From Hydractinia symbiolongicarpus (lineage: Eukaryota; Cnidaria; Hydrozoa; Anthoathecata; Hydractiniidae): 64,000 bases of DNA. Location of the stretch: assembly GCF_029227915.1 (NCBI RefSeq), contig NC_079876.1, positions 27,439,828 through 27,503,827 of the forward strand. The letters are read 5' to 3'. Below are positions 5,605 to 36,780 of this stretch, piece by piece. The notes under the pieces were generated by a model. It made no database searches. It was not told where the DNA came from and was given only the letters and a program-made list of their open reading frames with translations. Each line of letters begins with the position of its first letter. Positions within the stretch are counted from its first letter, which is position 1. The position numbers and the translations under genes were made by a program.

Positions 5605-7165
5605 TTAAAAAAACCCTCCTGTGTGCCAGAACTTGTGACTCTGCCTGTAGCTTTCCACATGTGTTACACGGCCCAAACACTCAGCCTTACACAGGAGGTG
5701 GTCACGACAGGACAATCCTGTCGATATTTTGACTAAGCACAGCAGGGTTGTCAAGCCTGAGGTCCAAATTAGCACACTTGGGCACCTTAGTGAACTGGGG
5801 TAGAAAGTGGGGTCGTTACACCCAAACACAAGCTAAAAGCAAACCCCCTTGCTAAGCTTCTATAAGTTACCAGAGAAGAGTGAGCTGAACTCTTTACCCT
5901 CTGGGTATTAACGGTAAACTGGCTTGTATAACCCAGCTTACAAATCCGCTTGAATTTACATTTTCCTCCTCCATGGCCCTGCTAGTACAGGTTAAAAGCG
6001 AAGGTATTTTAAAAAGAGGAAAAAAAGAAGAAAAAACGAGCAGCAGGTATAAAAGAAAACATATGATGTAGTGGTGTAGAGCGTTCTTGGATTAAATATG
6101 CTTGTCGCCTTATCATTGCAGAGGTACCAAGAGTTTGTGGTCCGATCTTTGATATGGGCCCAATAGTGGCCTGTATTCAATGTTCCAGAGTGAGCTACCA
6201 AAGCATACTTTTGGATAAAAGATGTGTCCTAGTCACTATATATCGGGATATTGAAATAAGGATTAGAAGAAGAAAAACTTTTAACAAATTTGTCCTTAAC
6301 CAGATGTTGTCCATCTTTTGCAAACCTTTTCAGGTGCAAGGTTAAAATTTCGCTATTCCTCGTAATCCTTGTTTCCGCAGTGCTCTCTTGGTGCAGGAAC
6401 ATTGTGGGCAAAACCATTTATATTCATTCTCCAGGTTTTCAGAATCTAAAAATATACTAACTGACAATTGGACGCTGGAAGACGGTGACAGTGTTAGGAT
6501 GTCCTGATTTTCAACAGTAACTGAAGAACAGACAGGTGTTACAGCTAATTGACACCGATACTACTGTCGAGATGTTCTGAGACGCAATTACCGAGAACCC
6601 TTTCAATTCTTTAAAGACAAGAAGTAACATCTCTGCTACATCTTGCTGAGAACTGTGTTGAAAAGCTGTATTTCCAGAAGAGTGTATCTTACGTTCTAGG
6701 GCCTTGAGAAAGTTTGAAGGATCAACCGGGGACAAAGAACGGTTTAGCATGGTCAATTTAAGAGCAATCGCCCTCATAATTAATGACAAACGGGATGACT
6801 CCGAAGCACTCTGGGACCATAGGGATGGAATAGTGCTTAGTGCTTGCAAAATAACATTGGCATAGCACGTATTGTCTTTGTTGACAAAACCTGCATTTAT
6901 AAAATTTGTCTTTGTTTTGGCACTAGTTTGTTATGGTTGATTACTAGAGAGGCCGGAGTGCGTGGACCTGATAAACGACCCTTGGGCATTTCTTTTACTG
7001 GAGCTGGATTACTTTGACGAGATGCAACAGACTTGGGTGGAAAAGTCTTTCTCGTTCCGGGTGCCTTAATTAAGGAGTCTTAAGACCAGTCTCTTTGACT
7101 CCCGAGCAATTCATACACAGAAAGAAGCTGTCATACTGATTTTACCAAGGTTTTTTGCGGTGGAA
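5605..7165 (-). mobile_element. USP-carrying repeat, divergent copy a
   Basis: Minus-strand unit: a USP domain (about 7165 to 5992) followed 3' by a GGGGTCGTTACACCC module (5795-5860) and a structured region. That region holds the perfect hairpin CGACAGGACAATCCTGTCG (about 5703-5721) and the outer pair CCTCCTGTGTG / ACACAGGAGG (about 5613-5699). The order USP, GTCGTC-type module, hairpin matches the better preserved copies at 9, 20 and 41 kb, but the primary sequence is strongly diverged, so this is an older or different subfamily. The 3' boundary is not certain. Confidence 0.5.
5992..7165 (-). pseudogene. Ubiquitin-specific protease (C19), nearly complete but frameshifted
   Basis: Reading down the minus strand, a proline/lysine-rich N-terminal stretch (about 7110-6915) precedes the catalytic Cys box NTCYANVILQAL (about 6875-6840). 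Next come the QQD box QQDVAEMLLLVF (about 6655-6620), a zinc-ribbon half FCPQC (about 6410), the LTLHLKRF strand (about 6330) and the His box TGHYW, ending NDKA then TSYVFFY. This is the USP order, and Cys, His and QQD elements are all present. At least three frameshifts and an in-frame stop near 7085 break it. The likely role was a cysteine protease removing ubiquitin. It ends in a hydrophobic tail read from low-complexity DNA. Confidence 0.75.
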
Positions 7166-7845
7166 TATGCCATTTTGTTGAAAAAACCCAGCCTTTTCAG
7201 ACACGACGTGGTTATTCTTGCGCAATAATCTCCGCAATAACCGTTACTCCTACAGCACAGAAATAAACTTGTCAACCAATAGTTTGTATTTTCTTCGCAA
7301 AGTCAAGTAAGTTCGATAATTATAACTCGTTTAAGCTTATTTGAAAAGATAACTATATCAAGTCTTTATCAAATATCAAGTTGTGACACAGCAAATTTAT
7401 TCTAATCTAAAATAACAAAAATAATTATTTCCGTGACAGAAATTGTGTGCAGAGTGAGAACTGAATGAAACATAAAAGCAAAACAGAAATTTCATTTTAA
7501 ATAAAGAGGTATTAGATACAGTAGGTGATGGAGGATTAAAAAGAATGATAAAAATTGTAAAGCTGCAGCTTTATGAAATTCGAACACCAACAGTGAGTAA
7601 AAACTTGGCTTTTAGTTTGTGAAGTTTAACTAAATGCTAATGAGCCAAAATACTAAGCAGAGCCAAACTGGGAAATTAAAACCAATTGATTGTACCAAAA
7701 ATTAGTTGTATATACAAAATAAAATAATAAACAAAACGAAATAAAAAAATTAGTACCTAAGTTATTACATACAAATGAGGCATGTGAAAGAAACCAATTT
7801 GAAAGACTGGCTAAAAGACCTAAGTATTATTAAATAAAAAACTAC
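7166..7845. other. No gene seen
   Basis: AT-rich sequence between the USP copy and a LINE tail. The best frames are short and interrupted. Nothing resembling an RNA gene or element end is visible. Confidence 0.4.
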
Positions 7846-8242: not shown

Positions 8243-8938
8243 ATGGTGGACGGGTTACCTGGTGTGGTAAATAGCACAGATGGTTTCCAAGTTCATGATG
8301 GTGATGAAAACCATAATGAAAGAATGCACAAAATAATAAACACATTTGGCCAAAAGGGAGTGACACTTAACCCAGCAAAGTCCAAGTTCAACACAAATGA
8401 AGTTGAATTCTTAAGACATAAAATATCTTCAAGTGGAGTAAAACCATCAACATCTAAAACTGATGCAATCCTCAACTTTCCAACCCCAAATAGCTTTACA
8501 GAATTACGCAAATTTATGGGTACGGCCCAACAAATGTCGAAATACACAGACAGTTTGGCACTGATAGCCAAACCGCTCAGGAACTTGTTGTCAACTAAAA
8601 ATTCGTGGCTATTGAGATCGGTCCATGACCAAGCATTCTAGAAGATCAAGAAACTTTTAACAACACCTAAAATCTTGAAGTTATCTGTTGGACAAAAGTC
8701 ACAAAACTTAGAGTGGGTGGTAGCAAGTTGAATGGCATAAGTGTGATAATATACCAACAACATGGAAAAAGTGGGATCCTGTTTCCTGTGGGTCCAGATT
8801 TTTAACAGATACGAAAAAGAACTACGATCCGATAGAGATAGAAATGCTAGCAGTTTCAAGAGGATGTAGGAAAATGCACATGTACATACATGGCCTAACA
8901 GAATTTACGATAGAATTGACCATAAGTCACTGATACAA
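8243..8938 (+). pseudogene. Gypsy pol fragment (RT end, RNase H)
   Basis: The first 132 codons read as the end of a Ty3/gypsy reverse transcriptase (VTLNPAKSKFNTNEVEFLRH, then FTELRKFMGTAQQMSKY) and the connection to RNase H. Past a stop at 8639 a frameshifted RNase H segment reads YDPIEIEMLAVSRGCRKMH and then DHKSLIQ. Multiple stops and frameshifts make it a relic. Its right end at 8938 is cut by the 3' terminus of USP-repeat copy b. Confidence 0.75.
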
Positions 8939-8940
8939 AA

Positions 8941-10331
8941 AAAATAAATTTACAAAGAGGTGGTTATCCACCGCAATGATGAACTCAACCTGTTAGGTCT
9001 TTGGAAACAAGCTAGAGGTTGAACTCCTCTAGAGAAATGCCTCCAAAAGCATAAAGGAATTTTTTCAAGGAATTTATTAAAAATAAATTAAAAAAAAAAA
9101 AAAAAATGAAACGACACAACACATTTGAAAAGATGAACAGACCTTCAACAAAGGGCAGGTAGGTTTCGACCATTGTTTCTGAACCTAAGTTCCCTGGATG
9201 TCTAGCTTGGCCACCTCAAAGAGGTCCTCGGACGGTCATCAGCAGAAACTAGACATCCCTATTTTCTCAAAGTAAACTTTGACCACTTTCTGTTCAACTG
9301 TACTATTCTTTGTTTTTAACTCAGGTAATAAGTGGAGTCGTTACTCTCCAAAGACAAGATCATGTCTGATCTAAACCCCTTGCTAATAATTTTTATTTGA
9401 CTTTGTTTTTATTTTTCACTGGGGTAATAAGTGGAGTCGTCACTCTCCAAAGACAAGACTGAGTGTAGTCAAGCCCCCTTGCTGACTCATTCTGGTTAAA
9501 ATACTCCTCACTCAGCTCTTCTAAAAAGAAAACATATGACTCGTGACTGTTAATAAAGCGGTCATCACAAAAAATTACTGCTCTATCGTTGCAATGTATC
9601 CACCTGTGAACTTGTTGGTCGAAGGCTAAGGTTGTGTATTGACCATTATTTAAGTTGCCGCAATGGTTGATATTAGCCCTTAATTGACAATGTTTGCGAA
9701 ATTTCACTTCTCTATCTACGGTAAAAGGTATGGAAAGGGTACCAGGGTAAGCAGTAATACGAGAGGCAATTTTTGACACAAGGCCGTTGGCACTGGCAAA
9801 ACGTTTTAGCTGTAAAATGAGATGGAAACCGCACGACACTACCTCTTTTTCAACTAGAGCAGTTTGATGAGCGTTGCAAACATGGCAGAAGTAGGCATTA
9901 GTGTGTGACAACTCCTCGCTTTCATAGAAATTATCTAAGGAAGATTGTAACGCAGGGTGCATAAAAAGTTGGATGCAAGGTGCTATAACTTTTGAGGAGC
10001 TGGTAATATGACTTGAATTGCAAGTGGTGGATGTCTTGATGCCCATACTAAAAAGACTTGGAAAGTCTACAGACAGACCAGGTAGGAGATATTCAAGAAC
10101 CTCAGGGACGTGCTGAGCAAAGATATTTAAACACACCTCCCTTCGCAGCTGAGATATGATGTTTTGTAGCACGCAAAAAATAGGAGGAGTCAACTGGACT
10201 GTTACAAACAGCCAAACTTTGAAGAACACCTACAAATGCTTCGCCTAACTTTGAGGTTGTTTTGCTGACAGAAATGGCTTTTTTAACTTTTGGAAGGTTA
10301 TAAAATCATTGTAAGATTGAATTAGCATAAT
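8941..10331 (-). mobile_element. USP-carrying retroposon, copy b
   Basis: Minus-strand element of about 1.39 kb. From 5' to 3' it has USP domain (about 10290-9510), two GGAGTCGTCACTCTCC modules (9418-9485 and 9326-9390), the GGATGTCTAG...CTAGACATCC hairpin (9196-9258), an A/T-rich tract, and a 3' end equivalent to GCCACCTCTTTGTAAATTTA at 8941. The left flank is the gypsy fragment. The right flank is the truncated R2/NeSL-like LINE in the same orientation, so the 5' end is either a truncation point or a true fusion. Confidence 0.7.
9510..10290 (-). pseudogene. USP (C19) catalytic-domain relic, copy b
   Basis: The frame contains a remnant of the QQD box (QHVPEVLEYLL), the zinc site (CNSSH, where copy c has CNSCH, and CHVC), HLILQLKRF, and the His box as GNLNNGQYTT. 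The catalytic His is replaced by Gln and one zinc Cys by Ser. A frameshift separates an upstream piece (NSPVDSSYFLRA, about 10200) from the main frame. The Cys box is not present. The open frame runs on to 9393 through 3' module sequence, so the last 40 codons are not USP. It cannot be an active protease. Confidence 0.75.
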
Positions 10332-10550
10332 AAGGCGACGAAAACAGGTACTTACTGATTCTGAACAGAAACCCCTTGCACCCACGTCAATGGCAAAGAA
10401 ATGCACAAGCCATTCATTGTTTTTCATAGCAAAACAACGCGAAGAAGCTTTTGTTCGTGCCAATATTCCATGTTCTCTGCACATGGACAGATCAGTTCTA
10501 ACACAATTGCGTTTTGAAGAACTACAAATTTATAACACGTCTGGGCGTAG

Positions 10551-10922
10551 AAAAGAAAATAATTTACAAAAAGGTGGCTAACCACCGCAATGATGAACTC
10601 AACCTGTAGGTCTTTGGAAATAAGCTAGAGGTTGTACTCCTCTAGAGAATATGACTCTAAAAGCACAATTCTCCCTTTTTACAAGGACTTAATTAAAAAA
10701 ATAAAAAGGACACAACACATTTGAAAAGATGAACAGAACTTTAACCAAGGGCAGGTAGGTTTCGACCCTTGTTTCTGAACCTAAGTACCCTGGATTTCTA
10801 GCTGGGTCACCTCGAAGAGATCCGCAAACGGTCATCAGCAAAAACTAGATATCCCTATCTTCCTAAAGTAAACTTTGACCGCTTTCTGTTCAACTGTGCT
10901 ATTCTTTGTTTTTAACTCAGGT
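10551..10922 (-). repeat. USP-family 3' repeat inserted in LINE
   Basis: A 372-bp 3'-terminal portion of the USP repeat, with 3' end AAATTATTTTC then TTTT at 10551, and the hairpin near 10795-10860. The uninterrupted LINE copy at about 35580-35610 reads straight through this point, so both junctions are defined: GGGCGTAG on one side and TTGTGTTATTGC on the other. No target-site duplication is evident. The 5' end falls at the boundary with the GTCGTC module, one of several different 5' truncation points in the family. Confidence 0.8.
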
Positions 10923-12701
10923 ATTGTGTTATTGCAATGTATGGTTGGACAAATAAAACGTAATCTAAATCTGACAGTATTTCCAATCGGAAGCAAGGTG
11001 AAGAAGGCCCGGAGACTTTGTATTCCTCTTGTTAGATGGTGATTGACCAGCCGGAATGAAATTAATTTTCCTGCACTTGGAAACCCTAAGTGGTTCATAC
11101 GATGACAAAAACTCTTTTAAAGCCTTAACCAACACAATTAAAACCGAGACATGGCTGTATATGTACCTACCCTGCAAAAGGGTGGTCCTACAGGCACCAA
11201 ATATGTGAGAGACATTTCAGGATGGTTTCTTGCACAGAATGCAGCTTTTGTCTTTCTTAATTCCCAATCTCAGAAGATTGGTTGGAGAGAGAAGAGTGTC
11301 GTAGGTTGCCCCTATACAAAAGGCAGTTAGACATTGCGGCAGTGAAAGAATTGTTCTCCAAGATCAATCATTTTTCACACAAGGCACCACTTTGTCCAAT
11401 TGCCTTGCAAATGCAATTGTACAGCTCGGGCATGGTAAATATGTTCTTCGTTTCCTTCAATGATATTGGAAACAAGCTTTCGGTAAGCATAAGTGCTTTT
11501 TGGTTGCATAAGTGCTATTTGGTTGCATAATTTGGTGGTCCAAGAACCCTAAGCCAGCACACGACCAGTCTGATGCAAACCTAAAATCTTTTTGAGATTG
11601 AGCTGACTATCCGCCGAAAGAACTGCCTCCCTAACTTTCCAATTTGCAGCCTTTAAATCTGGAACGCACTTAGACACACAAGGGTCGACAGAATCTCTTA
11701 GTAACAGATGTCCACTGATTTTGGCAGATTTGAGAACAGATGCAAGACTTTTCAGGGGAAGAGGACAAGGCGATGTCGATGAATATAAGGAAATGTTGGA
11801 AATTGAATGATGTAGTTTTAAGCATTTCCTAATGAAAACAGAAAATCTTTGCTCTAGTTTTGTGATGGTTTTCGTTGCCAACAGTAAACGGTGAACTGTG
11901 GACGACGCTTCCCTTATCAATAACAATGCTGCGTGATTTAGAAGGCCTAAATGACATGCCCACACAATCAAGAGGTGTTGTGCATCTGTTTAATAAACTT
12001 TGAGTACTTGGAATTGATGTGGACATAAAGAATATATCATACATGAAAGCTTTTATTGGACGCTGGTCTAGGATTTTATTTTTATTAACTTCAGTACCAA
12101 TCAAACACATAATCAATAATAACGTTTATAGCTGCAAGAAATAGTATAATGGAAGTGTACAGCCAATAAAAATTCCCCTGCAATGTTGATACCAACTGGA
12201 AGGAGCAGAAGCAGAAAAAGACTTACTCCAAAGGCTGTTGTAGTATAGCTGAATGAGCCCTATCCAGAATTCTGGTACACCATAGCGTCTGAGAACCATG
12301 AAAATCAGTTTGTGCGGAACTGAAGAATATGCATTAGCAACATCAAGCAATATGGCTGAAAGTGAAGAATGTTGTGCCTTTGCATTCTTAAGTGTGGACC
12401 AAACAAGAGACATGTGTTCCCAGCAACCCAGAATTTTTTCCATACAGCGTTTTAAATAAAAGTATTAATGAAGCTGTTTTTCTTTATAATATGCGATTCT
12501 AACTGCTTGAAAATCAAACTAAAAAAGAGCTTCCTTTCAACATTCAGAAAAGCTATGGGGCAAAAATCCTTTATGTTGGATGTTTTTAGGCATATAAACT
12601 TCTGATGCTATTCTTCATTACACGGGTATAAACGACTTCTTTAGACAAGCTTGAAAAATGTTAAACAGAAACGATGCGATAATGAGGACAATTCCTATGG
12701 A

Positions 12702-13430
12702 GAAAATAATTTACAAAAAGGTGTCTGGCCACCGCAATGATGAACTCAACCTGTTAGGTCTTTGGAAATAAGCTCGTGGTTGTACTCTTCTAGAGAAAAT
12801 GCCTCTAAAAGCACAATTCTCCCTTTTTTCAAGGAATTAATTAAAAAAATAAAAATAAAGAAAATTTTAAACATTGCAGCAAGGCACAATGAAATACTCA
12901 ACCTGTTAAGTCTCAGGGTTAAATCATAGAGGTTTTGTTCCTCCAAAGTTACTGCCAAAAGACAGTTAAACTTCCTTTTCGCAGGATACACAATATCAGT
13001 GAAAAAAAAACAACAAAAAAAACACACACAACACAGATTGCACAATCCCAACCTTGACACCAAACGGTTTCGCCCCAAAGCCTCAACAAAGGGGTGTCAG
13101 GATTCCAGGCGGGGCAACTCTAATCCGAGGTCCACTAAGTGGTCATCAGGAGGCCCTGGAATCCTCTTCTGTCATCAAATGTTCTGTAATCCGTGCAATC
13201 TATTGACATATAAAACAAGGGTTGACTGGGGTAATAAGTGGGGTCGTCACACCCAAAGACAAGACTTGTAGAAACCTGTAAAAAGGGAACTAAGCAAGTC
13301 TAAAAAGGACAAAACACATATCAAAAGATGAATAGAACTTTAACCAAGGGCAGGTAGGTTTCGACCTATATTTCTGAACCTAAGTACCCTGGCTGTATAG
13401 CTGGGTCACCTCGAAGAGGTCCGAGGACCA
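12702..13430 (-). repeat. USP-family 3' repeat with nested relative
   Basis: The copy covers 12702-12859 and 13301-13430. The A-rich tract between is occupied by a diverged family member (12860-13300). The outer copy has the usual 3' end at 12702 and breaks off inside the hairpin at 13430, next to the LINE pre-RT region. The LINE resumes on the other side at about 12700, so this is an insertion in the LINE, with perhaps a few codons lost. Confidence 0.75.
12860..13300 (-). repeat. Diverged USP-family subfamily member, nested
   Basis: 3' end GAAAATTTTAAAC (plus-strand form) at 12860, hairpin arms GGATTCCAGG (13100-13109) and CCTGGAATCC (13154-13163), then the module GGGGTCGTCACACCC (about 13233-13250). 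The layout equals that of the main family although little primary sequence is shared. It is 5'-truncated at 13300, where a relative at 23.9 kb continues towards its own USP domain. Confidence 0.7.
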
Positions 13431-14163
13431 TCCTTTTGGTTCAGCTCAAGAGAAGAAGCATTTCTACGAGAATGTAAGACAGCTTGGAAATTCTTGAACT
13501 TCAGGTTAGAAGAATCAAAAGCTGAAACTAGATTTGGTGGTGAAGGCAATCAAGGGAGATCTGAAAGAGGTATATGGCGTCAAGGATCATTCAAGGTTGA
13601 ATGTTTGTGAGAATCCAAGTCGTCCTTGGCAACTTAAGTTTGACTGAACATTTGGGATCTAAAGTTGTTTTTCCAGCCTGATAAGGATTCTTGGTAAAAG
13701 TCCGGCGTGCATTCAAGATTCTCCAACGTCTTTTCCTATTCCGCTGACGTCTGCGAAGTAACCTTAACTTGGCCATTGTATCATCTAAATGGAGCAGATT
13801 GTTCTTCTCGTTCCTCAAACTGATGCTGCGTAAAGGTCTTCTGTTTAAACCTCATAGGTTGTGCTGTGGAAGTGACCTTACACCAAACAGGTGAGACGCA
13901 TGGTAGTAAATTGTTGATTCCAACAGCTCCACCTATTTTGACAAGGGGTAAGAGTCTAGAAGTTTTTGGAAAACTACATCATCAACATAATTCCACAATT
14001 TTGTGTCAATTGACTTCGGCCAAGCAATACGTTGTTTCCATTTCATAATGCAAAGATTGTCAGGTTCTGTTGATTGCTGAGAAAGAACACTGTGGGAGTT
14101 ATCCGGGTTAGCTTTCAGCAGCCGAGACTTTTTAGAGGAATTAACAGCCAGCACAACTTGCAA

Positions 14164-14666
14164 AACAACTTTACAAGGTTTTAATGTCCAATGCTTAGTG
14201 GAAGTGAGTAACGAAGAATCACAGGTAGCAGGAAGGACAGAGGAGTTAGTAATAACGAAATGAGATAAGTGATAATTACTATTAACCGAATACCTAACGC
14301 CGCTTTTGCTATAAATACTAAAAAATCGGGTGCCGCTAGATCAGTCCGCACTGCTTGCAAGGCCTTTAAATCTCGTGGAAGTGAAAACACAGTAGTCATA
14401 CTTTAATTCATAAAAATCCACATTAGTACCACTGTACGGTAACAGATTTAATGTATTATTTTGCAAAGCTGCTGCATTGTACTTGCATATAAAAGGCAGC
14501 TGGTAACTTCATTGATCAATTGTCTAATCCTGATGACTTTTTAAAAGCTGCCAAGAAAGACATTGCAAATGTTCTCTTACCAGAAGTGAGAGAAACTGAT
14601 AAAGTTACAGGAGGTTAATTGTCTACTTATCTATTAGCCTGAAAATAAAATTATCAGATTAATAAG
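14164..14666. other. Possible LINE 5' region
   Basis: The sequence upstream of the LINE frame. A 72-codon minus-strand frame (14181-14399) is leucine-rich and unrecognised. It may be the decayed amino terminus of the LINE protein or unrelated DNA. Confidence 0.25.
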
Positions 14667-14815
14667 AACATAATTTACAAAGAGGTGGCAAGCCACCGCA
14701 ATGATGAACTCAACCTGTTAGGTCTTTGGAAATAAGCTAGAGGTTGTACTCCTCTAGAGAACATGCCTCTAAAAGCACAATTCTCCCTTTTTACAAGGAA
14801 TTAATTACAAAAAAA
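14667..14815 (-). repeat. USP-family 3' repeat, 150 bp
   Basis: A short copy holding only the last 150 bases, including the terminal GGTGGCAAGCCACC hairpin and the CTAGAGG...CCTCTAG stem. It starts within the A-rich tract. Same strand as the copies inside and beside the nearby LINE. Confidence 0.8.
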
Positions 14816-18816: not shown

Positions 18817-19574
18817 TCACTGTTGTAGGCCCCTAAATCGGATCCTAGATTTGCTTGCAGCAAACACCAGTATGTCCGAAGTGATAATAACATCGGAGCT
18901 GAATTGGTTTTTTAGGGCTGGAAGTTTTACAATCTCCCCTTCCAGCAGTAGGAGGAGGTCCTTCCAAGCGATTGCCTCCTTTGAATAATGGTAGTCCTGC
19001 ATTAGGATTAAATCAGCTCTATCAGCCCCCACCTATGCATAGGAAAATAATTTACAAAGAGGTGGCAAGCCACCGCAATGATGAACTCAGCCTGTTAGGT
19101 CTTTGAAAAAAAGCTAGAGGTTGTACTCCTCTAGAGAAAATGCCTCTAAAAGCACAATTCTCCCTTTATACAAGGAATTAATTAAAAAAATATAGAAAAT
19201 AAAAAGAACACAACACTTTTGAAAAAATAAACAGAACTTTAACCAAGGGCAGACTTGTCGATTGAAGGATTTTCAAAGCAATTAAAAATTAATTTCAAAG
19301 GCTTAAGGATAAATGTTTTTGCACAATTTGTTGAACCAACAACTATCATGAGATTGCGCCATTTACCACGACCCTTTACCAACAAATCTTTTATGTACCC
19401 AGCAAATGTGTGGGGTCTGATCGAGTTGCGCTGCAGCACTTCAATCGCAGACGCAAGCCATATACAATTATCAGGACAACTCTGCTGTACAGCCTGGGAA
19501 ATCATCTCCATGCCGCCGGCGTTTTCCCTTTGCATTTGTTTTGCTGCACCTTTCATCGTCCACGTTTTTTTCAA
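18817..19574 (-). pseudogene. Parvovirus NS1-like SF3 helicase gene fragment, split
   Basis: Two minus-strand pieces belong together. The first (19574-19255) has a Walker-A-type loop GSTNCAKTF (about 19340-19315). The second (about 19042-18817) has the Walker-B-side block ADLILMQDYHY, then AWKDLLLLLEGEIVKLPA and a downstream strand. Superfamily 3 helicases of the Parvo_NS1 type have this order, and related genes occur in cnidarian genomes. A USP-family repeat (19043-19253) separates the two, and an in-frame stop sits just after it. Only the ATPase core is seen, without the nickase domain. It could be an endogenised parvovirus gene or a cellular or transposon-borne relative. Confidence 0.6.
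19043..19253 (-). repeat. USP-family 3' repeat inside NS1-like gene
   Basis: A 211-bp copy with 3' end GAAAATAATTTACAAAGAGG (plus-strand form) at 19043 and a 5' end at TCTGCCCTTGG (minus strand). The host gene reads up to one side and resumes in register on the other, so the insertion site is clear and no target duplication longer than one or two bases is evident. Confidence 0.8.
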
Positions 19575-19688
19575 CTAGTTCACTTATGTTTTTCTCTGCT
19601 CTCAAGAACAAAAAACAGCAAGTTGACAATCGCCTTGTTACTTTCTATACTCTGCCATGGCATGAAGTTCAGTTATGTTGTGTAAGAA

Positions 19689-20828
19689 GAAAATAATTTA
19701 CAAAGAGGTGGCAAGCCACCGCAATGATGAACTCAGCCTGTTAGGTCTTTGGAAAAAAGCTAGAGGTTGTACTCCTCTAAAGAAAATGCCTCTAAAAGCA
19801 CAAGGAATTAATTAAAAAATATATAAAAAGATAAAAAGGACACAACACATTTGAAAAGATGAACAGAACTTTAACCAAGGGCAGGTAGGTTTCGACCCAT
19901 ATTTCTAAACCTAAGTACCCTGGATGTCTAGCTGGGTCACCTCGAAGAGGTCCGCGGACGGTCATCAGCAGAAACTAGACATCCCTATCTTCCTAAAGTA
20001 AACTTTGGCCACTTTCTGTTCAACTGTGCTATTCTTTGTTTTTAACTCAGGTAATAAGTGGAGTCGTCAGTCTCCAAAGACAAGACCTAGTATGATCAAA
20101 CCCCCTTGCTAACTTAATTTTTATTTGATTTTGTTTTATTTTTGACTGGGGTAATAAGTGGAGTCGTCACTCTCCAAAGACAAGACTGAGTGTAGTCAAG
20201 CCCCCTTGCTGACTCATTCTGGTTAAATTATCCTTACCTCAGCTCTTCTAAAAAGAAAACATATGACTCATGACTGTTAATAAGGCAGTTATCACAGAAA
20301 ATTACTGCTCTATCGTTGCAATGTATCCACCAGTAAACCATTTGGTCGAAGGCTATGGTTGTGTAGTGACCATTATTTAAGTTGCCGCAATGGTTGATAA
20401 TAGCTCTTAATTGAAAATTTTTACGAAATTTCACTTCTCCATCTACGGTAAAAGGTATGGAAAGGGTACCAGGGTAAGCAGTAATACGAGAGGCAATTTT
20501 TGACACAAGGCCGTTGTCACTGGCAAAACGTTTTAGCTGTAAAATGAGATGGGAACCGCACGACACTACCTCTTCTTCAACTAGAGCAGTTTGATGAGCG
20601 TTGCAAACATGGCAGAAGTAGGCATTGGTGTCTGACAACTCCTCGCTTTCAAAGAAATTATCTAAGGAAGATTGTAACGTAGGGTGCAGAGAAAGTTGGA
20701 TGCATGGTGTTATAACTTCTGAGGAGCTGGTAATATGACATGAATTGCAAGTGGTTGATGTCTTGATGCCATTCCTAAAAAGACTTCCAAAAAATGGAAA
20801 ATTTAATGACAGACCAGGTAGGAGATAT
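19689..20828 (-). mobile_element. USP-carrying retroposon, copy c (best preserved)
   Basis: A 1.14-kb minus-strand element. The USP C-terminal half (about 20828-20234) is followed by a GTAAGG sequence directly after the last conserved residues, two GGAGTCGTC modules (20146-20215 and 20046-20110), and a hairpin with perfect 10-bp arms (19922-19931 and 19975-19984). The A-rich tract is next, then the CTAGAGG/CCTCTAG and GGTGGC/GCCACC stems, and the fixed 3' end at 19689. It is 5'-truncated within the USP domain at GGAGATAT, where copy b continues. Flanks are unrelated to each other. Confidence 0.75.
20234..20828 (-). pseudogene. USP (C19) C-terminal half, copy c
   Basis: Conserved elements in order are a leucine-proline strand (LLPGLSLNF), zinc Cys pairs CNSCH and CHVC, HLILQLKRF, and the His box GNLNNGHYTTIAF with catalytic His kept. 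WIHCNDRAV and SYVFFLEEL end the domain. Unlike copy b, zinc ligands and the His are intact and 134 codons (20638-20234) are open without a stop; a frame change lies just upstream. The Cys-box half is absent because the element is 5'-truncated, so this copy alone cannot make an active deubiquitinase. GAG|GTAAGG after the final Leu could be a splice donor or simply UTR. Confidence 0.75.
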
Positions 20829-23679: not shown

Positions 23680-23805
23680 TCAATCCGAGGTCCACTACGA
23701 CAATCCTTCTCTGTCATCAAATGTTCTTTAATTCGTACAATCTATTGACATATAAAACAAGGGTTGACTGGGGTAATAAGTGGGGTCGTCACACCCAAAG
23801 ACAAG

Positions 23806-23920
23806 GAATGAAAATTACAAAGTGCACGCACAATGATAAACTTGACCAGTTAAGTCTTAAAATTTAAATTCTAGAGGTTTTGCTCCTTTAAAGAATATGC
23901 TCATATAAAGGAACAGAATT
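23806..23920 (-). repeat. USP-family subfamily 3 short insertion
   Basis: 3' end GAATGAAAATTACAAAGTGC (plus-strand form) at 23806. It is closely related to the repeat at 30762-31036. It is inserted between GACAAG and ACTTGTAG of the subfamily-2 copy, giving another clean example of a short insertion with a fixed 3' end. Confidence 0.6.
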
Positions 23921-24048
23921 CTTACTTGTAGGAACCTGTAAAAAGGGAACTAAGCAAGCGACGTGTTAATTATCAATTTTTTTTTTAATTTTCCTATTTT
24001 TATTTTATTTTTTATTAATTTAAACTGCCTGGAAAAAAAAGACATGGG

Positions 24049-24545
24049 TTAGTTTGCTGTTAAGTTCTTCCGAACGTCACATTGTGTCACAGCTCTGTCA
24101 TTGCAGTGAAGCCACTGGTGTGTCTTTTGGTCTTGAACAATGGCTGTATAGTGCCCATTATTAAGAGAACCAGAGTGGTTTATAAGCGCTATGATCTTAA
24201 AGTGCTTAGGGGTTCTTACCCCAGGGTCAATGGTAAGAGGAAGGGATAAGAAGTCTGGGAAACAAGAAACTGGCGACACTTGTTTTGAGATACAACCACA
24301 ACGTTTTAACTGCACTATAAGGTGTGAACCACTCTTTACAATTTCCGTCTATCGTGTTGCTGTTTGACGGGAATTACACTTATCATTCCCTGTTAAAACC
24401 TCAGGTTGTAAGAAGAGGTTCAATGACTCTTGAATTGTGGGTCTTGGTTGCAATTCAAGAAATAGAGATATTTCATCAGTAGAGTGCGATTGGAAACATG
24501 TGTCACATGTGAGTGTAGTTCCAGTACGTAAAAGATCATCATTCT
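24049..24545 (-). pseudogene. USP (C19) domain relic, copy d
   Basis: The frame reads CDTCFQSHS (zinc pair), a long spacer with a leucine-rich helix, HLIVQLKR, then GSLNNGHYTAIVQDQ with the catalytic His, and WLHCNDRAVTQCD. One in-frame TAG near 24352 interrupts it. It is clearly a different subfamily from copies b and c although the order of motifs is identical. The N-terminal half with the Cys box is absent; at 24545 a Penelope fragment on the other strand begins. Confidence 0.7.
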
Positions 24546-25640: not shown

Positions 25641-26394
25641 GTATTGTATTTAAGGGATTAGTTTGGTGAGGATTGTTGCTCTTGCGGCAGCACGAAACTT
25701 TAAGTACAAACAAATATTCTGTTATTTTTAAACCTGAGTATATTTGCTCTACTGCAATGTTATCATCTGTCATTTTAGAAAGAGGAAGATGAAAAAGAGA
25801 AGATTTCTATTTAAATTTTATAGTTTTTTCTGTTTTTTGTTTTTCTTATTTTTTAATATTTGAATAATCTTTTCCAAAAGAAAGTCTTGCTATGTATACC
25901 TTTATACAACCTGTTTTTTGGAAAAAAGGAAAAGAACAACAAAATGAATAGGAAAACACCTGATGACTCATCAGTAGATACCAGTGCAACTGTTTCGGGC
26001 AATTATTTCTAAACAGTTTCAATTGCACTGGATGCCCAGCAGGAGTAGAGCTAATTCCCACCGTCATAGGTGTGTTTCTTGTTGGTATACTTAATGACAA
26101 TTGTCGCAAGTCAAAAAGGATTTGATGGTTTGTACCAGAAGTCGAGTTTCAAAGACCAGCTACGAAACGATTTGTAATATAAAATGTCCAGCATAATAGT
26201 GTCATTAGTATAAACAATAGTATAAAAGTATAAATAATAATATAAATAAGATAGCAAGCCTGACCTGCAGCGTGAACGTCCAGCATTTAGTGCGTATTGA
26301 AATAAATAAGAAACTGTCATATATATAACATGATGGAGGAATAACTGTCCAGCAGGTAAAAATGGTTTGATTTTGAAAAAACTATATCAATGAG
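25641..26394. other. No gene seen
   Basis: AT-rich DNA between the Penelope relic and the gypsy 5' LTR. Short minus-strand frames show no family signature. Confidence 0.4.
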
Positions 26395-26544
26395 TGTGAT
26401 ATCTGCGTTGCCTCTCGCGCACGCGGAGCTTACATGCCTTCCGACATCGCCTTTGCTTTTATATTTTGTTACGGATCTGTAGGTCATCGTTGAGGAGACC
26501 GTAAGATGGACCTAAAAAGTAAACATATGTTTTGAATCATCACA
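26395..26544 (+). repeat. Gypsy-1 5' LTR
   Basis: Starts TGTGATATCTGCG and ends CA at 26544, immediately before a TGGCGCTGCGAG primer-binding-type site (26546-26557). The first 136 bp match the 3' copy at 30469-30604 with only two substitutions. An LTR of 150 bp is short for gypsy elements. Confidence 0.8.
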
Positions 26545-26545
26545 C

Positions 26546-26557
26546 TGGCGCTGCGAG
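26546..26557 (+). promoter_or_regulatory. Primer binding site, gypsy-1
   Basis: TGGCGCTGCGAG lies one base after the 5' LTR terminal CA. The TGG start is the complement of a tRNA CCA end. The tRNA identity was not determined. Confidence 0.6.
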
Positions 26558-26705
26558 TTTATCTTTGTTAATCCTGACGAATCTCCCTACATACAGGACA
26601 ATTTTACTTTTTCTACTTCCTTTGTGATATCTAGAACGATATTATTCAATTATTTCTGCTTACCCACTCCGAGAGCTAGCCACAGAGACGTGTTGTGTTT
26701 ACATT

Positions 26706-29700
26706 ATGGCTAGGGCAGTGGACATCAGTTGTCCTCCACACTTTGATACAAATGGCGACGTTACTAGTCTAGGCACCCGCTGGAAGAGGTGGAGAAATGG
26801 GTTTGACCTGTATTTAGTAGCTGCAGGTATTACCGATAACACCCAGAAGAAAGCTCTTCTGTTACACTGTGCGGGTGAAGATTTACGTGAACTTTTTGAC
26901 ACGTTACCTGAGCCAGAGGCCGCAGACGGCCAAAATGATTATGTTAAAGCATGTACTGCATTAGATACATACGTCACTGCTGAAACCTCCTCCTCGGATG
27001 ATGATTTTGTGTTAGCCATCGACAATGACCCTAACTGTCCCAACCATAAAAATTCCATGTACCCAGCAGATGTAAATGGACAACGTGTCAATGTGCTCAT
27101 AGACAGTGGAAGTACCATCAATGTAATCAGCAAAAGCACCCTTAGTGCACTAAAATTAAAGTCACCTATCCTTCCATACCACAAGAAAGTTTTTGCTTTT
27201 GGTGCGTCGTCACCGCTCAAAGTTAATGGCTGCATATGGGTTGTCGTTGGTGCTGGAGAGAAAGTCGTGTCTACCAGATTTGTTGTTGTACCACAATCTT
27301 CTGTCACCATATTGGGTGTGGAAACCGCTTGCAAATTGGACCTACTCCGAGTTGGCCCAGGTGGAACCAAGAACGACAAGGTGAACCACATCTCTACCTC
27401 CGAGGACGGTGTATTAAAACAACTGCTTTGCAATTATGGTGACAGGTTTGAGGGCCTTGGAAAACTGAAAGATGTCAACCTCAAAATCCAAATAGATCCC
27501 ACGGTAACTCCAGTCGCACAGAAAGCCAGACGTCTACCGATCCTAATGCAGCAACAACTGGACATGGAATTAGAAAAACTCTCAGAACTCGGTGTCATCG
27601 AGCCCATAGAATCACCACCATCATGGGTTAATCCCCTTGTGATCGTACCTAAGAAAACACCTTCTGATGGCACACGTATGTGTGTTGACATGCGTGTTGC
27701 AAACACCGCAGTCATAAGAGAACCGTATCAGATACCAACTCTGGAAGAAGTGCTGCATGAGTTCAACGGGTGCACAGTGTTCACAAAGCTGGACCTGAAC
27801 AAGGGATACCACCAAATTGCTCTAGACGAGGCTAACAGAGACCTTACGGTCTTTGCAACACACCATGGTATATTCAGATTCACAAGGCTGATATATGGAA
27901 TCGCCCCTGCCGCTGAACAATATCAACGAGAATTGGAACTTGCACTATCAGGACTATCTAAAGTACGTAACATCTCAGATGATATCATTATTGGTGGCAC
28001 TAGTAATCAAGATCTACTGGATCGCATGCAATGCGTATTTGAGCGTCTCCCAGAGAAAAATCTCACAGTAAACCTAAAGAAATGCGAGTTTCTGAAGACT
28101 GAGCTTATCCACATGGGTCACAAGTTGTCAAAAGATGGAATTGCACCGGATGAGAGGAAAGTACGAGCTATAGCTGACCTCAAACCACCAACTAATGTGA
28201 AAGAATTGCAATCCTTTTTTGGCATGGTGACATACTGCTCCAAATTCTTACCACACTTCTCAACTGTGACTGCACCATTGCGTCAACTACTCAGCAAAGA
28301 CACTAAATGGAGCTGGGGAGATGCGCAACGACAAGCGTTCAATGATCTTAAGATCATGCTGTTGTCCAGTGCGACACTTGCTTACTATCAACCTGACGCA
28401 TACACCGAAATCTTTACTGATGCATCCCCTGTTGGGCTTGGCGCAGTTATAATGCAACGTTAGCCAGATGGTATCTTAAAACCAATTGGATATGCCAGTC
28501 GCTCACTACTAAATGCAGAAACAAGATATAGCCAGATTGAAAAGGAGTGCTTGGCTATCCTATTTGCAATAGAGCGGTTTCGAATCTATCTTTATGGTAT
28601 AGAATTTGTTGTTAAAACCGACCACAAGCCGCTAGTGACAATGTTCTCCCCTCGTAGGAAACAGCTTCCACCACGCATTGAACGCTGGGTTATGAGACTC
28701 ATGCCATACGCATTCAAGGTTGAGTATCACCCAGGCAGAACCAATGGAGCAGATTACCTGTCACGGTCAAACCCGATGCAAGACAATACACCATTGCACC
28801 GAATGACTGAAGAATTTGTCAACTTTATTCAAAGTAAACAACTACCAGTTGCCATACCAAAGAAAGACATTCGTGATGCACAGAATGATGATCCTGCCAT
28901 TGCCCTCATTAAGAAACACCTTGCATCTGGAACCATTCCAAAATTGGATGTTATTAAAGAGTATTATCCCTCACGTTTGCAACTATCCATTGTCAATGAC
29001 ATTCTCATGTTTGCCAACAAAATTGTCATCCCGCCAACCCTGCGAGAAAGCATCATCTCCATTGCACATGAAGGACATCAGGGACAAGTACGCACAAAAC
29101 AACGTTTGCGGAAAAAAGTATGGTGGCCACGCATGGGCTCCTCGGTTGAAGCCCACATTAAGTCATGTCATGGATGTCAAGTCACCGCTGGTGCACAAAT
29201 CAAAACTCCAGTAGTAATGACAGAAATACCTGATTCAGCTTGGTTGATGTTGGGTTGTGACCTTTGCGGTCCGTTCCCTACTGGTGAACACCTGCTAGTA
29301 TGCATTGATTATTACAGCAGATATCCCGAGGTAGAGATTATCCGCCAAATAACTGCTGCTAATATCGTTGACAAACTTCGTAAAATGTTTTGTCGTTATG
29401 GTGCGCCAGAGATAATAGTGACCAACAATGGACCACAATTCCGGAGCAATACAGATTTCGCTACTTTGATGAAAGAATTTGGGGTGGAGCACCGCAAAGT
29501 TACCCCATACCATCCCGAGGCAAATGGTGAGGTTGAAAGGTTCAACAGAAATCTGAAGAAAACCATCCAAGCTGCAATTGCTGAAAATCAGAACTGGCGA
29601 ACTGCCCTCCAGAATTACCTATTAGCATACCGTACCACACCGCACGCAACCACTGGTGCCACTCCTGCAGAGCTTCTGCTTAACAGACCGGTTAAAGACA

Positions 29701-30296
29701 AGCTACCAGCCTCAACCACAAGTTCCAAAAACACCATGTCTGTCGTTAAAAACCGAGACCGCATCCAAAAAGAGAGAATCGCGAAATATGCAGACAAACG
29801 CAACAATGCTCGCAGTCATGTCATTCAACCTGGGCAAAAGGTTCTTGTGGCCAATCAGTCAACACATCGCAACAAATTTACCCCTAGATGGCGCGATGAA
29901 CCTTGTACTGTTACTGCTGTAAAAGGAAATGCAATTTTCATTGAAGACGGTACAAAAACTATGATGCGCACTTCCTCTCACGTCAAACCCTACTTCATGC
30001 GAAATAACCAGCGGTCAAATAAACGACATCTTCAACAACCGACAGTGACAACCGATTCTGCAACAGAAAGCTCTGATGACGATTTTGACCTGCCACCAAC
30101 TGTAAACGACCCTGGGAACGAAACCGACTTGACGTCATCTGATGATACCGTTGTCACAGAAAGCCCATCCAGTGACGAGACCATTGCGTATGGCGAGGAA
30201 GAGGTGAATGATGAAGAACTCTTCGTTCCAAATAGAAACACACGTACTCGAAACGTTAAACCACCACCTCGTTTCAAAGATTTCGTTACTGCGTAA
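26706..30296 (+). pseudogene. Gypsy-1 gag-pol, one stop and key lesions
   Basis: One reading frame of 1197 codons, interrupted only by TAG at 28461-28463 inside RNase H. A gag amino terminus (residues 1-93) jumps directly to the protease (LIDSGSTINVIS, about residue 132), with no nucleocapsid zinc knuckle. RT follows (VFTKLDLNKGYHQI; catalytic ISDD near residue 424), then RNase H (FTDASPVGLGAV) and integrase with an HHCC finger (HEGHQG ... CHGC). The integrase catalytic Asp is changed: VTNNGPQF, codon 29424-29426 AAC, where the family has TDNG. The Glu (ANGEVERF) is kept. The end is an acidic tail and a PPPRFKDF motif. Gag loss, amber codon and integrase lesion leave it non-autonomous. Confidence 0.85.
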
Positions 30297-30460
30297 CTAC
30301 GAACACATGAACTTTATTGTGGAACTGCAAGACTTTATGTTTGTAGCTTGGTGGTAGTTGGGCAGCGTCGCTATGCCTCAACTAGCCAGTTGTTGTGCTT
30401 TGCTGGTGCACATAGTCTTATGTTGATATTTAATTCTACTAGGAACCATTTGGTTAAGTT

Positions 30461-30468
30461 GGGAGAGA
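30461..30468 (+). promoter_or_regulatory. Polypurine tract, gypsy-1
   Basis: GGGAGAGA lies directly before the 3' LTR start at 30469, the position of the plus-strand primer in LTR elements. Confidence 0.7.
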
Positions 30469-30640
30469 TGTGATATCTGCGTTGCCTCTCGCACACGCGG
30501 AGCTTACATGCCTTCCGACATCGCCTTTGCTTTTATATTTTGTTACGGATCTGTAGGTCATCGTTGAGGAGACCGTAAGATGGACCTGAAAAGTAAACAT
30601 ATGTAAACATGGCCTGAAAAGTAAACATATGTAAACATGG
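30469..30640 (+). repeat. Gypsy-1 3' LTR with altered end
   Basis: Identical to the 5' LTR for 136 bp except two substitutions (30469-30604). The last 14 bp of the LTR are then replaced by a second copy of a 28-bp unit beginning CCTGAAAAGTAAACATATG (30585-30612 and 30613-30640). The expected terminal CA and target duplication are absent, so the right end was rearranged after insertion. Confidence 0.75.
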
Positions 30641-31112: not shown

Positions 31113-33026
31113 GAAGATAGGGTGTCTAGTTTCTGCTGATGACCGTCCGCGGACCTCTTCGAGGTGACCCAGCTAGACAGCCAGGGTACTTAGGTTCGTA
31201 TATACTAAAAGTAGGAACCAGCAGTAACCAACAGTAACCAGCAGTATTTCGAAGTAACCACCAGAGAACCACCAGTATTTTGAAGTAACCACCAGAGAAC
31301 AAGCTGTTTTTTTAAGTAACAACAAGAGAACGAGCAGTTATTATTAATTTACTCCAGATAAGGCGGCAAAAGCGGCGCAAAGGTGTTGTGATTTTTATGC
31401 ACAACACTTCATGACTTTAAACTAACAAATATAATAAATAAAAGGGCACCTAGTTCCCAGGACTTTTTTCTGATACTTTATGTTGTTCTTGCTAATTAGC
31501 TACTTTAAAGTTGTTTTCATGAGGTCCAATAAAATGCATTCCGCGAAGATTAATTTTCGAAAATATGAATAAAAGTCGCGGAATTCGCGATAATTAATCA
31601 ACTTAAGTTATTTAGTTATTTATTTCGCCTAACGGCAATATGGAAACAAAAAAAAACAGAACGAAAATAGTGTTTTCAGAATTAAAGTTTATTCTTTGAA
31701 ATAAAATGTAACATGTTTCAAGTAAAAAACGTTCATAATAAAAGCATAAAATTATAACTTGACTGACTAGACTTTTTTATAAAAAGCTTGTAAATAAACA
31801 AATGAAATTTTCACACCAAGTGAGTAACACAACCCTTACCTCGGTAATTTCTCTGTCATTCTAAAAAAAACTGTCCTGGACACCAACAGATTTTCTTTAG
31901 TCTCAATATTTTATATTATGTTAACAAACCATGTGAGAAAAACAAACGTATATTTCTATCCGATGCCACGATGTTTCTCCACAACATTTATTAATTCATT
32001 CAATTCATTCGAACTTTATTTTGTCTACCAAAAGAAAAAAATGTCTCGTTTTGAACCCTCCTCCGTATAGCATTTTTCGTTATATTTGGGTTACATACAC
32101 GAATTGCAAAATGAAAATCCTTCGGTCAAATCATGGAGGTATACATAATCTGATAAAGCGGAATAATTTTTTAGGAAGCGTTAAAGGAAGTGTGTAATCG
32201 CTGCGAGAAATAAACTTTGATATGGATTCATCAACAGTGGATAGAATGGCAGTAGAGGTATCTCTCACGCTCGTGACTTCAAACTGTGCTGAATATTAAT
32301 TCATTCATTAAATTCATTTAATTCATTCGAACTTTAACTTTGTCTACCAGAAGGAAAAAATGTCTCCTTTTGGACTCTCATCCGTATAGTGTTTTTCGTT
32401 ATATTTGGTTTACAATTCAGATATTAGTTTATTATTTAAAATATTAATTTTGTTTTTGTTAATTCTCGCGTGTGGTTTTAAAATACTAATACAGTCAGTA
32501 TATACTTTTTTCAAAAAGCCTTCTGTCTTTTAATCAACTATTGCATAAAGCCCGAGTCACACCAGACATAAACATTTCAACAAATGGGTCATGAACTGTT
32601 GTGTACATTATAAAATGTTTCACATTTGAAGCGGTAATTGCGTTTATTTCGTTTTATCTATTTAACTGCTCGTTCTCTGTAGGTTACTTCAAAATACTGG
32701 TGGTTTTCTGTTGGTTACTTCACAATACTGGTGGTTCTCTGGTGGTTACTTCGAAATACTGCTGGTTACTGCTGGTTCCTACTTTTAGTAAAAGCGACTT
32801 AGGTTCAGAAATATGGGTCGAAACCTACCTGCCCTTGGTTAAAGTTCTGTTCATCTTTTCAATTGTGTTGTGTCCTTTTTATTTTTGTATATATTTTTAA
32901 TTAATTTCTTGTTGTGCTTTTAGAGGCATTTTCTCTTGAGGAGTACAACCTCTAGCTTATTTCCAAAGACCTAACAGGTTGAGTTCATCATTGCGGTGGC
33001 TTGCCACCTCTTTGTAAATTATTTTC
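31113..33026 (+). repeat. USP-family 3' repeat split by a transposon
   Basis: Plus-sense copy: the hairpin (GGTGTCTAG ... CTAGACAGCC, about 31121-31183) and TACTTAGGTTC run up to 31197. The copy resumes at ACTTAGGTTCAGAAATATGG (32797) and continues to the fixed 3' end AAATTATTTTC at 33026. The interruption is the TIR element at 31198-32796. This is one of the few copies here lying on the plus strand. Confidence 0.8.
31198..32796. mobile_element. Non-autonomous TIR transposon, 10-bp target duplication
   Basis: A 1.6-kb element flanked by ACTTAGGTTC on both sides (31188-31197 and 32797-32806), where an unbroken family copy has this once. The ends form long inverted repeats of about 100 bp containing ACTAAAAGTAGGAACCAGC and several AACCAGCAGT / AACCACCAGAGA units. 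A 9-10-bp duplication with long TIRs suits a MULE-type element; family assignment is an inference. No transposase frame is present. Internally, a block of about 105 bp is repeated directly (31988-32093 and 32296-32408). Confidence 0.7.
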
Positions 33027-33892
33027 TTATCTCTATAATAATAGCCGTATTTTGTCTGTTCATAAGGGTTACCGATATTCCTTTGATCTTTCCGCGAATT
33101 TTTAGAAACCAGGGGGTTGTTTAATTGGAAATCTTATGATTTATTAAAATAAATTACAGAAATTAAATTAATTCCTTACATAATTTTTCCTCTCTTAATT
33201 TAATTGATAAACCTCTAATTTAAAAAACAAATTAAGTTAATAAAATGAATTCATTATTTGAATGCGCCATTTTTAATAATAATTTACCCCCATGACCTTA
33301 ATCGCCGATTCCACCCAGGAGCCACAGAAAACAAATAGGATGATTTTACTGACAGTTTAACTGACTTTGTTTTGACCGCTTGCACGTGTATACCAATCAA
33401 AACGCCTGATTCTTTGGAAAACCAATCAAGACTTTCGCGGCCTAGACATGCCAACAAAGAAACATGATGGCTATTTTAGTTTTTAAAAAGTAATGGTGGC
33501 CAGTGTTGTTTCTAAGTCTGCTTCAGCTTTTTGTCTTCTATAAGCTTTTTATATTTGTAATATTTTTTTTTTTTTTATGTTCTAAAATGTGAAGATAAGT
33601 ATATTGTCACGTTTTTTAACTACGTGTGCAGATCCTAAACGAACCAGTTTTAGGATTTTTGTCAAGGAACGAATATTTTAAAGGCTACTAGCTGTTTGGT
33701 ATAAGAGGTTTCATATATCTCATATATTTACCTAAAAAGTGATAGTATAAAAAATCAGTTTGGCTATCATTATCGCAATATTCTCAGTAATAAATCTCAT
33801 GCTAAATGCAGTTTATCTTTAATTATTTTCTTAAAACATTTTTTGAAAATAAAATGGCTTAGCAATTGCTTTAGCTGGAGGGGTAACGACAG
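33027..33892. other. No gene; possible Helitron-like 5' end
   Basis: TCTCTATAATAATAGCCG followed by TTTTGTCTGTTC (about 33032) resembles the 5' ends of Helitrons elsewhere in the window. The rest is AT-rich and precedes the 5'-truncated LINE. Confidence 0.3.
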
Positions 33893-35951: not shown

Positions 35952-35952
35952 A

Positions 35953-36190
35953 GGGACATAGTTCTTTTTTGATGCAGTTGCAGTTGTGTTCTTTTTGGGA
36001 AGGTTTGGTGTTAATAATGTTTTTTTTATGGGCATCTATGTGTTGTTTCATGTTAGGCACGCAACTGTAGCTTACTTTAACATTGTTTCGGTTAAATATT
36101 TTGTGATACTTGTGTTTTCGAGTAAAATGTTTGTCGATTAGCGATAAAAATTGCTTTGCAATTCTTGTTTTAACATTTACGCTGTAGGGG
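35953..36190 (+). other. LINE copy 2 3' region
   Basis: AT-rich tail after the LINE stop codon up to the neighbouring Penelope fragment. Likely 3' UTR. It does not resemble the USP-family 3' end. Confidence 0.35.
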
Positions 36191-36193
36191 GGA

Positions 36194-36311
36194 TTAAACC
36201 AAATTATATTTCTTTTTCTGTTTTTTTTGGTATTGTTTTTTTGTTTGTTTGTGTATGTAAGTTTTTTGGAATAACCTGAGTTTTTGAGCGCTAAGGTACT
36301 TGGTACGCTTG

Positions 36312-36387
<76 letters not shown>

Positions 36388-36780
36388 AGATATAGATATA
36401 GATATAGATATAGATATAGATATAGATATAGATATAGATATAGATATAGATATAGATATAGATAAATTTGCAATAATTCAATCTGGCTTTAGCGTTCGTG
36501 GTTTTGATAATTTTCCAACTGATAATTGGCTCTTTGTTTTGATCTTTCAAGTTCCAAACGTAGCTTGACAATGCGGTACTTTTTCTATACCCCAATGATT
36601 TTATATCTCGTTTGTGATTTCGATATCTTTCCTTAAACGTAGTTTCAGCGGCGCCTACGTATATCCTCTTCTCTTCATCTTTGTTATTACCGACCTCTGC
36701 CTGGTAAATCAATTTCAATATTAAGCATTGATTTTGCAAAGGACATTCTCCTTTTTTTCTGCAGTTTCGATTTAAGACGT
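36194..36780 (-). pseudogene. Penelope-like GIY-YIG domain with microsatellite
   Basis: The minus strand reads NCRKKGECPLQNQCLILK, IYQAEV, IYVGAAETTFKERYRNHKRDI, then STALSSYVWNLKDQN and ISWKIIK. This is the Cys motif plus GIY-YIG nuclease of Penelope-like elements. The frame then runs into a TA/GATATA tract (36313-36463) instead of the usual CxLCLxEK end. One frame change lies near 36740. Confidence 0.7.
36313..36463. repeat. TA / GATATA microsatellite
   Basis: About 58 bp of TA dinucleotides followed by GATATA hexamers to 36463. The long IY and ID frames across it are translation artefacts. Confidence 0.95.

Follow-up and report, generated by a model that had tools for sequence, protein, structure and literature searches.

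The window, a stretch of 64,000 nt of Hydractinia symbiolongicarpus contig NC_079876.1, holds five minus-strand loci, here copies a to e, for which an earlier note had claimed a C19 ubiquitin-specific protease (USP) domain, and the domain was found at all five. The Pfam UCH profile (PF00443) was significant in copies a (1.8e-11 and 2.5e-11), b (2.3e-11), c (5.9e-14), and d (1.3e-12), and copy e was recognized by DNA match, with 88.5–91.6% identity to copies b and c over 296–297 bp, including 17 residues near the USP end. Copy c (19687–20828), the locus at which the earlier note was placed, is 5′-truncated and comprises the C-terminal part of the USP, the 3′ UTR, and the terminus; it is 90.5% identical to copy b up to 20786, and the two copies, by eye, share ATATCTCC at the truncation point of copy c. 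Copy e (40680–41403) is also 5′-truncated, with the last part of the USP, the 3′ UTR, and the terminus. Copy d (24049–24540), 44% identical to copy c, carries the USP of another subfamily with the His box NNGHYT. Copy a (6049–7395) contains the end of a restriction-like endonuclease (RLE; about 7084–7395), a linker, and a USP with its Cys box (about 6049–6910); it alone retains the boxes for Cys, His, and Asp, and its reading frame is interrupted by stop codons. The GACGAC/GTCGTC module, described previously for four loci, was present in copies b, c, d, and e, and copy a has an AACGAC variant at 5805–5853 in its 3′ flank (5605–5981).

Reverse transcriptase (RT) and RLE sequences, which the earlier note had not noticed, lie directly upstream of the USP. 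Copy b (8938–14340, 5′ end not fixed) is a nearly complete but decayed RT–RLE–USP LINE, colinear by tblastn from 14259 to 9519 with the predicted H. symbiolongicarpus protein P0021 as well as P0004 and P0041. It consists of an N-terminal region (13436–14259, matching residues 56–263 of P0021), the RT and the region following it (11384–12680; tblastn of RT_33887 and P0041), a zinc linker and RLE (10332–11378, by tblastn), a USP beginning at YANSILQ (9519–10329), and the 3′ UTR with the same terminus as in copy c (8938–9508; 87.1% identity to copy c over 574 columns). A deletion between RRL and YANSILQ has taken the RLE end, the linker, and the Cys box, and the His box reads NNGQYT, so that the catalytic His is lost. 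In copy a, which belongs to a more diverged subfamily, a single alignment to residues 988–1451 of P0004 (39% identity, 3e-80) runs across several stops and covers the RLE end, the linker, and the whole USP; identity to P0026 was 60–86%. RLE and USP are thus colinear in both copies. Furthermore, a second copy of the LINE of copy b lies on the plus strand (33887–35934), with RT (RVT_1, 9.8e-14), zinc linker (zf-RVT, 5.8e-6, just under its cut-off), and RLE; it is 93% identical to P0021 over residues 649–753, its homology ends after the RLE end, and RT–RLE dN/dS against copy b was 0.25, 0.28, and 0.53 in three pieces. Because RT and RLE precede the USP in copy b, and RLE precedes it in copy a, the repeat is a LINE with a C-terminal USP. 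Its protein is ordered as N-terminal region, RT, zinc (CCHC-like) linker, PD-(D/E)xK RLE, flexible linker, and C-terminal C19 USP.

Other elements accompany the LINE copies in the window. A Gypsy-like element, named by eye, occupies 26392–30604 (+), with two long frames between 98%-identical 140-bp direct repeats, and a second Gypsy-like pol, likewise named by eye, lies at 60492–63459 (−). Frames with long (TATATA)n tracts at 35938–36784 (−) adjoin the end of the plus-strand LINE and look by eye like a Penelope-like remnant. A 111-aa frame at 19239–19574 (−) has a P-loop-like motif, GSTNCAKT, and is perhaps a helicase fragment.

The claim that copies b, c, and e end at one common 3′ terminus was borne out by DNA comparison. 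In this terminus, a short hairpin, GGTGGC..GCCACC, precedes TTTGTAAATTATTTTC; copy a lacks the terminus, and the 3′ flank of copy d (23702–24048), with one copy of the module, has, by eye, a diverged form of it. The terminus also occurs on six shorter copies beyond the five loci, which begin later than copies b, c, and e and are therefore 5′ truncations. Short 5′-truncated copies lie at 10549–10923 (−; within the RLE of copy b, by DNA match to the 3′ end of the family), at 12701–13428 (−; nested in copy b and split by other sequence into 12701–12864 and 13301–13428), at 19039–19252 (−), at 32797–33030 (+), and at 50061–50144 (+); a 3′-end copy at 14660–14814 (−) lies within the 5′ region of copy b or adjoins it, and an internal 3′ UTR piece with the hairpin region is at 31113–31197 (+). 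Among terminus-bearing copies, those reaching more than about 550 nt from the terminus are b, c, and e, and all three contain USP sequence. The insertion at 10549–10923 has a clean empty site near 35595 in the plus-strand copy, against which no target duplication was visible. The window loci and the six shorter copies are thus 5′-truncated or decayed copies of RLE non-LTR retrotransposons.

A fixed 3′ end with a hairpin is the rule for Helitrons. A Helitron reading was dropped on account of the 5′-truncated copies, the exact empty site, and the RT and RLE. No known RNA family matched at its gathering score in the 64-kb window, the 3′ UTR of copy c gave a single chance-level match, and the 5′ region of the genome copy L016 gave none at E values up to 1. 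The 3′ UTR folded only slightly better than shuffled sequences (z −2.0; 3/100).

The H. symbiolongicarpus genome (480.9 Mb) was searched with P0002, covering RLE and USP, with 75 of 1694 candidates scored. At least 80 match rows were obtained, 66 of which run from the RLE to at least residue 388 of P0002, into the USP; some of the remaining rows are pieces of one copy or the RLE alone. Half of 20 fetched genome copies had open frames of 1345–1426 aa, and one intact copy of 1421 aa matched both RVT_1 (8.1e-16) and UCH (3.8e-32). In subfamily A, twelve copies on several contigs are 99.47–99.75% identical to L016, and these 13 copies end within a few nucleotides of one place, with scattered 5′ starts. 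Such near-identical copies with one 3′ end and varied 5′ ends point to recent activity of subfamily A. As for target preference, the 13 copies have no common 3′ flank, and in 11 of them flank matches were no longer than between-copy controls (mean 4.5 vs 4.5). In an independent copy of the window subfamily, L033, zinc linker, RLE, and USP are encoded in one uninterrupted frame of 667 aa, and the 3′ UTR and terminus behind it are those seen in copy c.

All five loci occupy the same strand and fall within 36 kb, an arrangement that would also result if a host USP gene had given rise to tandem pseudogenes close to repeats of unrelated origin. However, the USP of copies a and b is preceded by the RLE, and 41 LINE USPs separated from 12 others in the more careful of two USP trees; above all, RT, RLE, and USP occur together in single ORFs, and 99.5–99.8% identical copies are spread over several contigs. 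These last two results exclude tandem host pseudogenes for practical purposes and uphold the earlier proposal of a mobile family carrying a C19 USP.

Several further arrangements were seen among the genome copies. Immediately after L033 comes the Cys-box portion of a different USP-LINE, which suggests that a USP-LINE has landed within the USP of a second one. The complete 5368-bp unit is present in eight of the 13 copies of subfamily A (L016–L021, L025, and L026 with L036–L039). In each of these, 111 to 2450 bp of the 3′ end of another unit lie directly upstream, always with exactly the same junction; at one site, two full units stand in tandem. In a second subfamily, L029 has its own subfamily's 3′ end (1744–2142) shortly upstream of a long copy. 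The full-unit junctions resemble a tandem or Penelope-like pseudo-LTR organization, and transcripts may start in the upstream unit. Near the 5′ end of the unit, L016 has 19-bp tandem repeats (GACACTGGGAAAGACTAGT) at 2179–2250, and the window has a similar 15-mer at 14827 (−), next to the 5′ region of copy b.

Related proteins were collected in two ways. A first search, scored on the RLE end, linker, and USP (7966 candidates scored), gave 35 proteins, of which 22 cover at least 99% of the query stretch and 13 have both RT and USP Pfam domains. In a second search, words were taken from the first 500 residues, so that selection was not by the USP; among the best 120 of the 439 proteins obtained, RT and USP were combined in one ORF in 69, and 51 had no precomputed UCH domain, although P0069, P0078, P0096, and P0103 showed partial USP matches. 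Relatives among these 120 are up to 2151 aa long, and for most of them the sole source tag is ena, lgn, or jgi. Two USP-LINE proteins, P0061 and P0085, are filed under 'Pseudomonadales bacterium' MAGs and are probably misbinned eukaryotic DNA. Of several scans of viral contigs, one gave four loci with the USP part alone and the others none; a genome contig collection gave three loci, also with the USP part alone. The IMG/VR contigs L004–L006 (56–132 kb) encode distant USP-like proteins with 23–25% identity to the USP part.

Against the PDB, the RT of P0004 matched the R2 protein (3.9e-28), and its USP matched human USP36 (5.2e-21). The CCHC, RPD, E, and K columns, which we take to be the mark of an RLE, were invariant in ten aligned relatives; under stricter regular expressions, the 76 proteins with a complete LINE USP (of 143 scored) contained CCHC in 68, RPD..E..K in 40, and FxDD in 57 cases. 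A C2H2-like N-terminal pattern was present in 14 of 43 proteins with at least 200 aa before the RT. In the 76 complete proteins, the USP is the last domain, with a tail of median 2 and at most 18 aa, and is joined to the RLE by a Ser/Pro/Lys/Thr-rich linker of 34–457 aa (median 57 aa). USP-less relatives account for 33 of 105 labelled rows in the RT–RLE tree, a few of these rows being fragments; the USP is therefore not required by all such LINEs. One USP-less protein, P0132, has after its RLE a 500-aa tail with no Pfam match, the first 160 residues of which are Ser/Gln/Asn/Thr-rich.

The catalytic residues of the USP are almost fully conserved: Cys in 76/76, His in 75/76, and Asp in 76/76 complete LINE USPs, and the four zinc Cys in 75, 76, 76, and 76 of 76. 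The earlier suggestion that conservation of the USP part be compared between subfamilies was followed, and copies c and d gave pN 0.33 and pS 0.83 over 153 codons. Between subfamilies A and B, pN was 0.23 in the RT, 0.27 in the RLE, 0.38 in the USP, and 0.48 in the linker, with pS of 0.68–0.82 (0.77 in the USP). The pattern of substitutions thus indicates purifying selection on the USP between subfamilies. In the recent window pair b–c, USP dN/dS was 0.85–0.90, as expected of dead copies, and this pair lends no support to selection. The USP changed about 1.9 times as fast as RT–RLE, the two trees having been calculated under different models; such faster change suits a conflict with the host but also a dispensable domain. 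A USP that is no more than a captured piece of a gene, of no use to the element, would agree with the related lineages that manage without it, yet we hold this to be very improbable, given the retention of catalytic and zinc residues in 75–76 of 76 proteins, the open frames in ten fetched genome copies, a pN far below pS, and USP distances congruent with those of RT–RLE. The variable linker between RLE and USP, with its pN of 0.48, would also be in keeping with self-processing, in which the USP would act as a polyprotein protease freeing itself or the RT at a ubiquitin-like site. However, LRGG and LRLRGG occurred in none of the 76 complete proteins, which speaks against self-processing, and Pfam scans of P0004, P0068, P0075, and P0264 revealed no ubiquitin-like domain; we consider this role improbable.

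The unrooted RT–RLE tree (106 rows) contained one outer clade of nine USP-less rows; in the rest of the tree, every larger branch included proteins with the USP, USP-less groups being nested there and P0132 forming a USP-less branch of a single row. The tree required 8 changes of USP state, compared to 28 in shuffles. When the tree was rooted with R2, itself on an extremely long branch, the USP lay inside a fully supported clade of 90 rows with nested USP-less groups and 5 state changes, seven near-identical rows having been omitted and the uncertain USP-less P0112, P0079, P0101, and P0103 left uncounted. RT–RLE and USP distances were correlated in 65 proteins (r 0.81), a value reached in 0 of 2000 permutations, which ignore relatedness. 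The earlier view that the USP has long resided in the family is supported. In the careful USP tree, which kept 41 of the 76 LINE USPs and 12 of the 26 others, the LINE USPs were set apart with support of 100/99, several deep branches being poorly supported; in the larger tree, the 76 were separated from the 26 with support of 94. The host sample consisted mostly of USP8/DOA4 types along with human USP2 and USP15, and the LINE USP may have originated from a USP family outside it. When the USP of P0075 alone was the query, the best other proteins were two plant proteins, followed by host USP8s, and no other LINE was among the best 120 of 2957 matches. Furthermore, a LINE-USP model scored the USPs of P0086, P0088, P0093, P0095, and P0098 at 3e-22 to 2e-24, weaker than Hydra USP8 (3e-33), and the USP of one deep lineage looks host-like. 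The P0075 results and the weak scores of several deep-lineage USPs count against a single capture; nevertheless, the simplest reading of the trees appears to be one old capture with several later losses.

LINEs of the RLE family spread by target-primed reverse transcription (TPRT), and from this family membership and the truncation pattern we infer the same mode of spread here. We favour, as the rather probable account, an RLE LINE with one ORF in which a predicted deubiquitinase is carried on the RT protein. An RNA copy of the element would be inserted by TPRT, giving a fixed 3′ end and variable 5′ ends. The USP, predicted to have deubiquitinase activity and joined to the RT protein, would most likely remove ubiquitin from the protein or RNP of the element itself, and host ubiquitin ligases could then not send the element protein to the proteasome. 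Such self-deubiquitination is suggested by analogy with a single report, according to which TRIM41 ubiquitinates human L1 ORF2p, leading to its degradation and to lower L1 retrotransposition (PMC10716122), L1 being a different kind of LINE. Alternatively, the substrates of the tethered USP may be host proteins that carry ubiquitin where the element inserts, such as histone H2A/H2B, PCNA, or repair factors, so that chromatin is opened or repair steered during TPRT: its position after the endonuclease, with a linker of median 57 aa between them, would bring it to the nick, and the Ginger paper suggests that transposon-borne Ulp1 and OTU may act on DNA-repair factors (PMC2836005). Related RLE LINEs without a USP exist, which tells against this action at the insertion site, and we regard it as unlikely. 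Returning to removal of ubiquitin from the element's own protein, a wider scenario can be put forward tentatively, with the chances slightly against it as a whole: a lineage of RLE LINEs that is widespread and apparently has no name may have captured a host USP long ago and kept it as a working deubiquitinase against ubiquitin-based restriction, with loss in some sisters.

USPs are a well-studied enzyme class for which inhibitors and probes exist. The predicted USP is here fused to a LINE protein with young open-frame copies in a laboratory animal, and ubiquitin control of LINE mobility, as well as counter-defence by the LINE, can thus be tested directly via one catalytic residue.

Dualen LINEs carry OTU, and to our knowledge the role of Ulp1 and OTU proteases in LINEs is unsettled. 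Host USPs (USP36, USP8/DOA4, USP2, and USP15) have the same C19 domain, Cys/His/Asp boxes, and zinc Cys pairs as the LINE USPs, but have no RT fusion, and a branch separates the LINE USPs in the sample from the host USPs in it. The best solved USP relative differed by lineage, being USP8 for window copy c, USP36 for P0004, USP2 for P0075, and USP15 for P0088. The R2 protein (PDB 9nl3, 9dou, 9nl2, and 8gh6), which gave the best solved RT match, is also that of an RLE-type LINE, but no USP was matched in it. P0223 from Littorina saxatilis (1895 aa) is a Helitron-type protein (Helitron_like_N, PIF1) with a C-terminal USP (UCH, 2.1e-56); its USP groups with host USPs rather than LINE USPs and thus looks like a separate capture.

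The earlier note knew of no element family carrying a C19 USP. As regards LINEs, this stands: no C19-bearing LINE was found in the open-access literature, most subscription papers and Repbase lying outside this scope. For mobile elements in general it has to be qualified, given the Helitron-type USP protein P0223 and a Trichomonas transposase_11 protein with a C19 domain mentioned in print (PMC2836005). The same source describes Ulp1 or OTU in Ginger1, Mutator, and Helitron elements, which, as here, combine a mobile-element protein with a ubiquitin or SUMO protease but are DNA transposons, none of those described there being a LINE (PMC2836005). LINEs with Ulp1 are already in print: NeSL/Utopia elements, as reported for nematode elements (PMC4640811), are RLE LINEs with an N-terminal Ulp1-like cysteine protease. 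Pfam detected no Ulp1 in the Hydractinia elements and their relatives, which have UCH at the C terminus instead. Utopia insertion is described there as target-specific, whereas the 13 subfamily-A flanks showed no target preference. Insertion at specific targets is frequent in the R2/NeSL/Utopia/HERO group of RLE LINEs but does not define it. As far as these sources go, a C19 USP within a LINE protein therefore appears to be new. The Hydractinia LINEs share with NeSL/Utopia a central RT, a C-terminal zinc finger and RLE, and a captured cysteine protease of the ubiquitin pathway, but differ from the elements described there in that the protease is a C19 USP, placed behind the RLE and found in many lineages.
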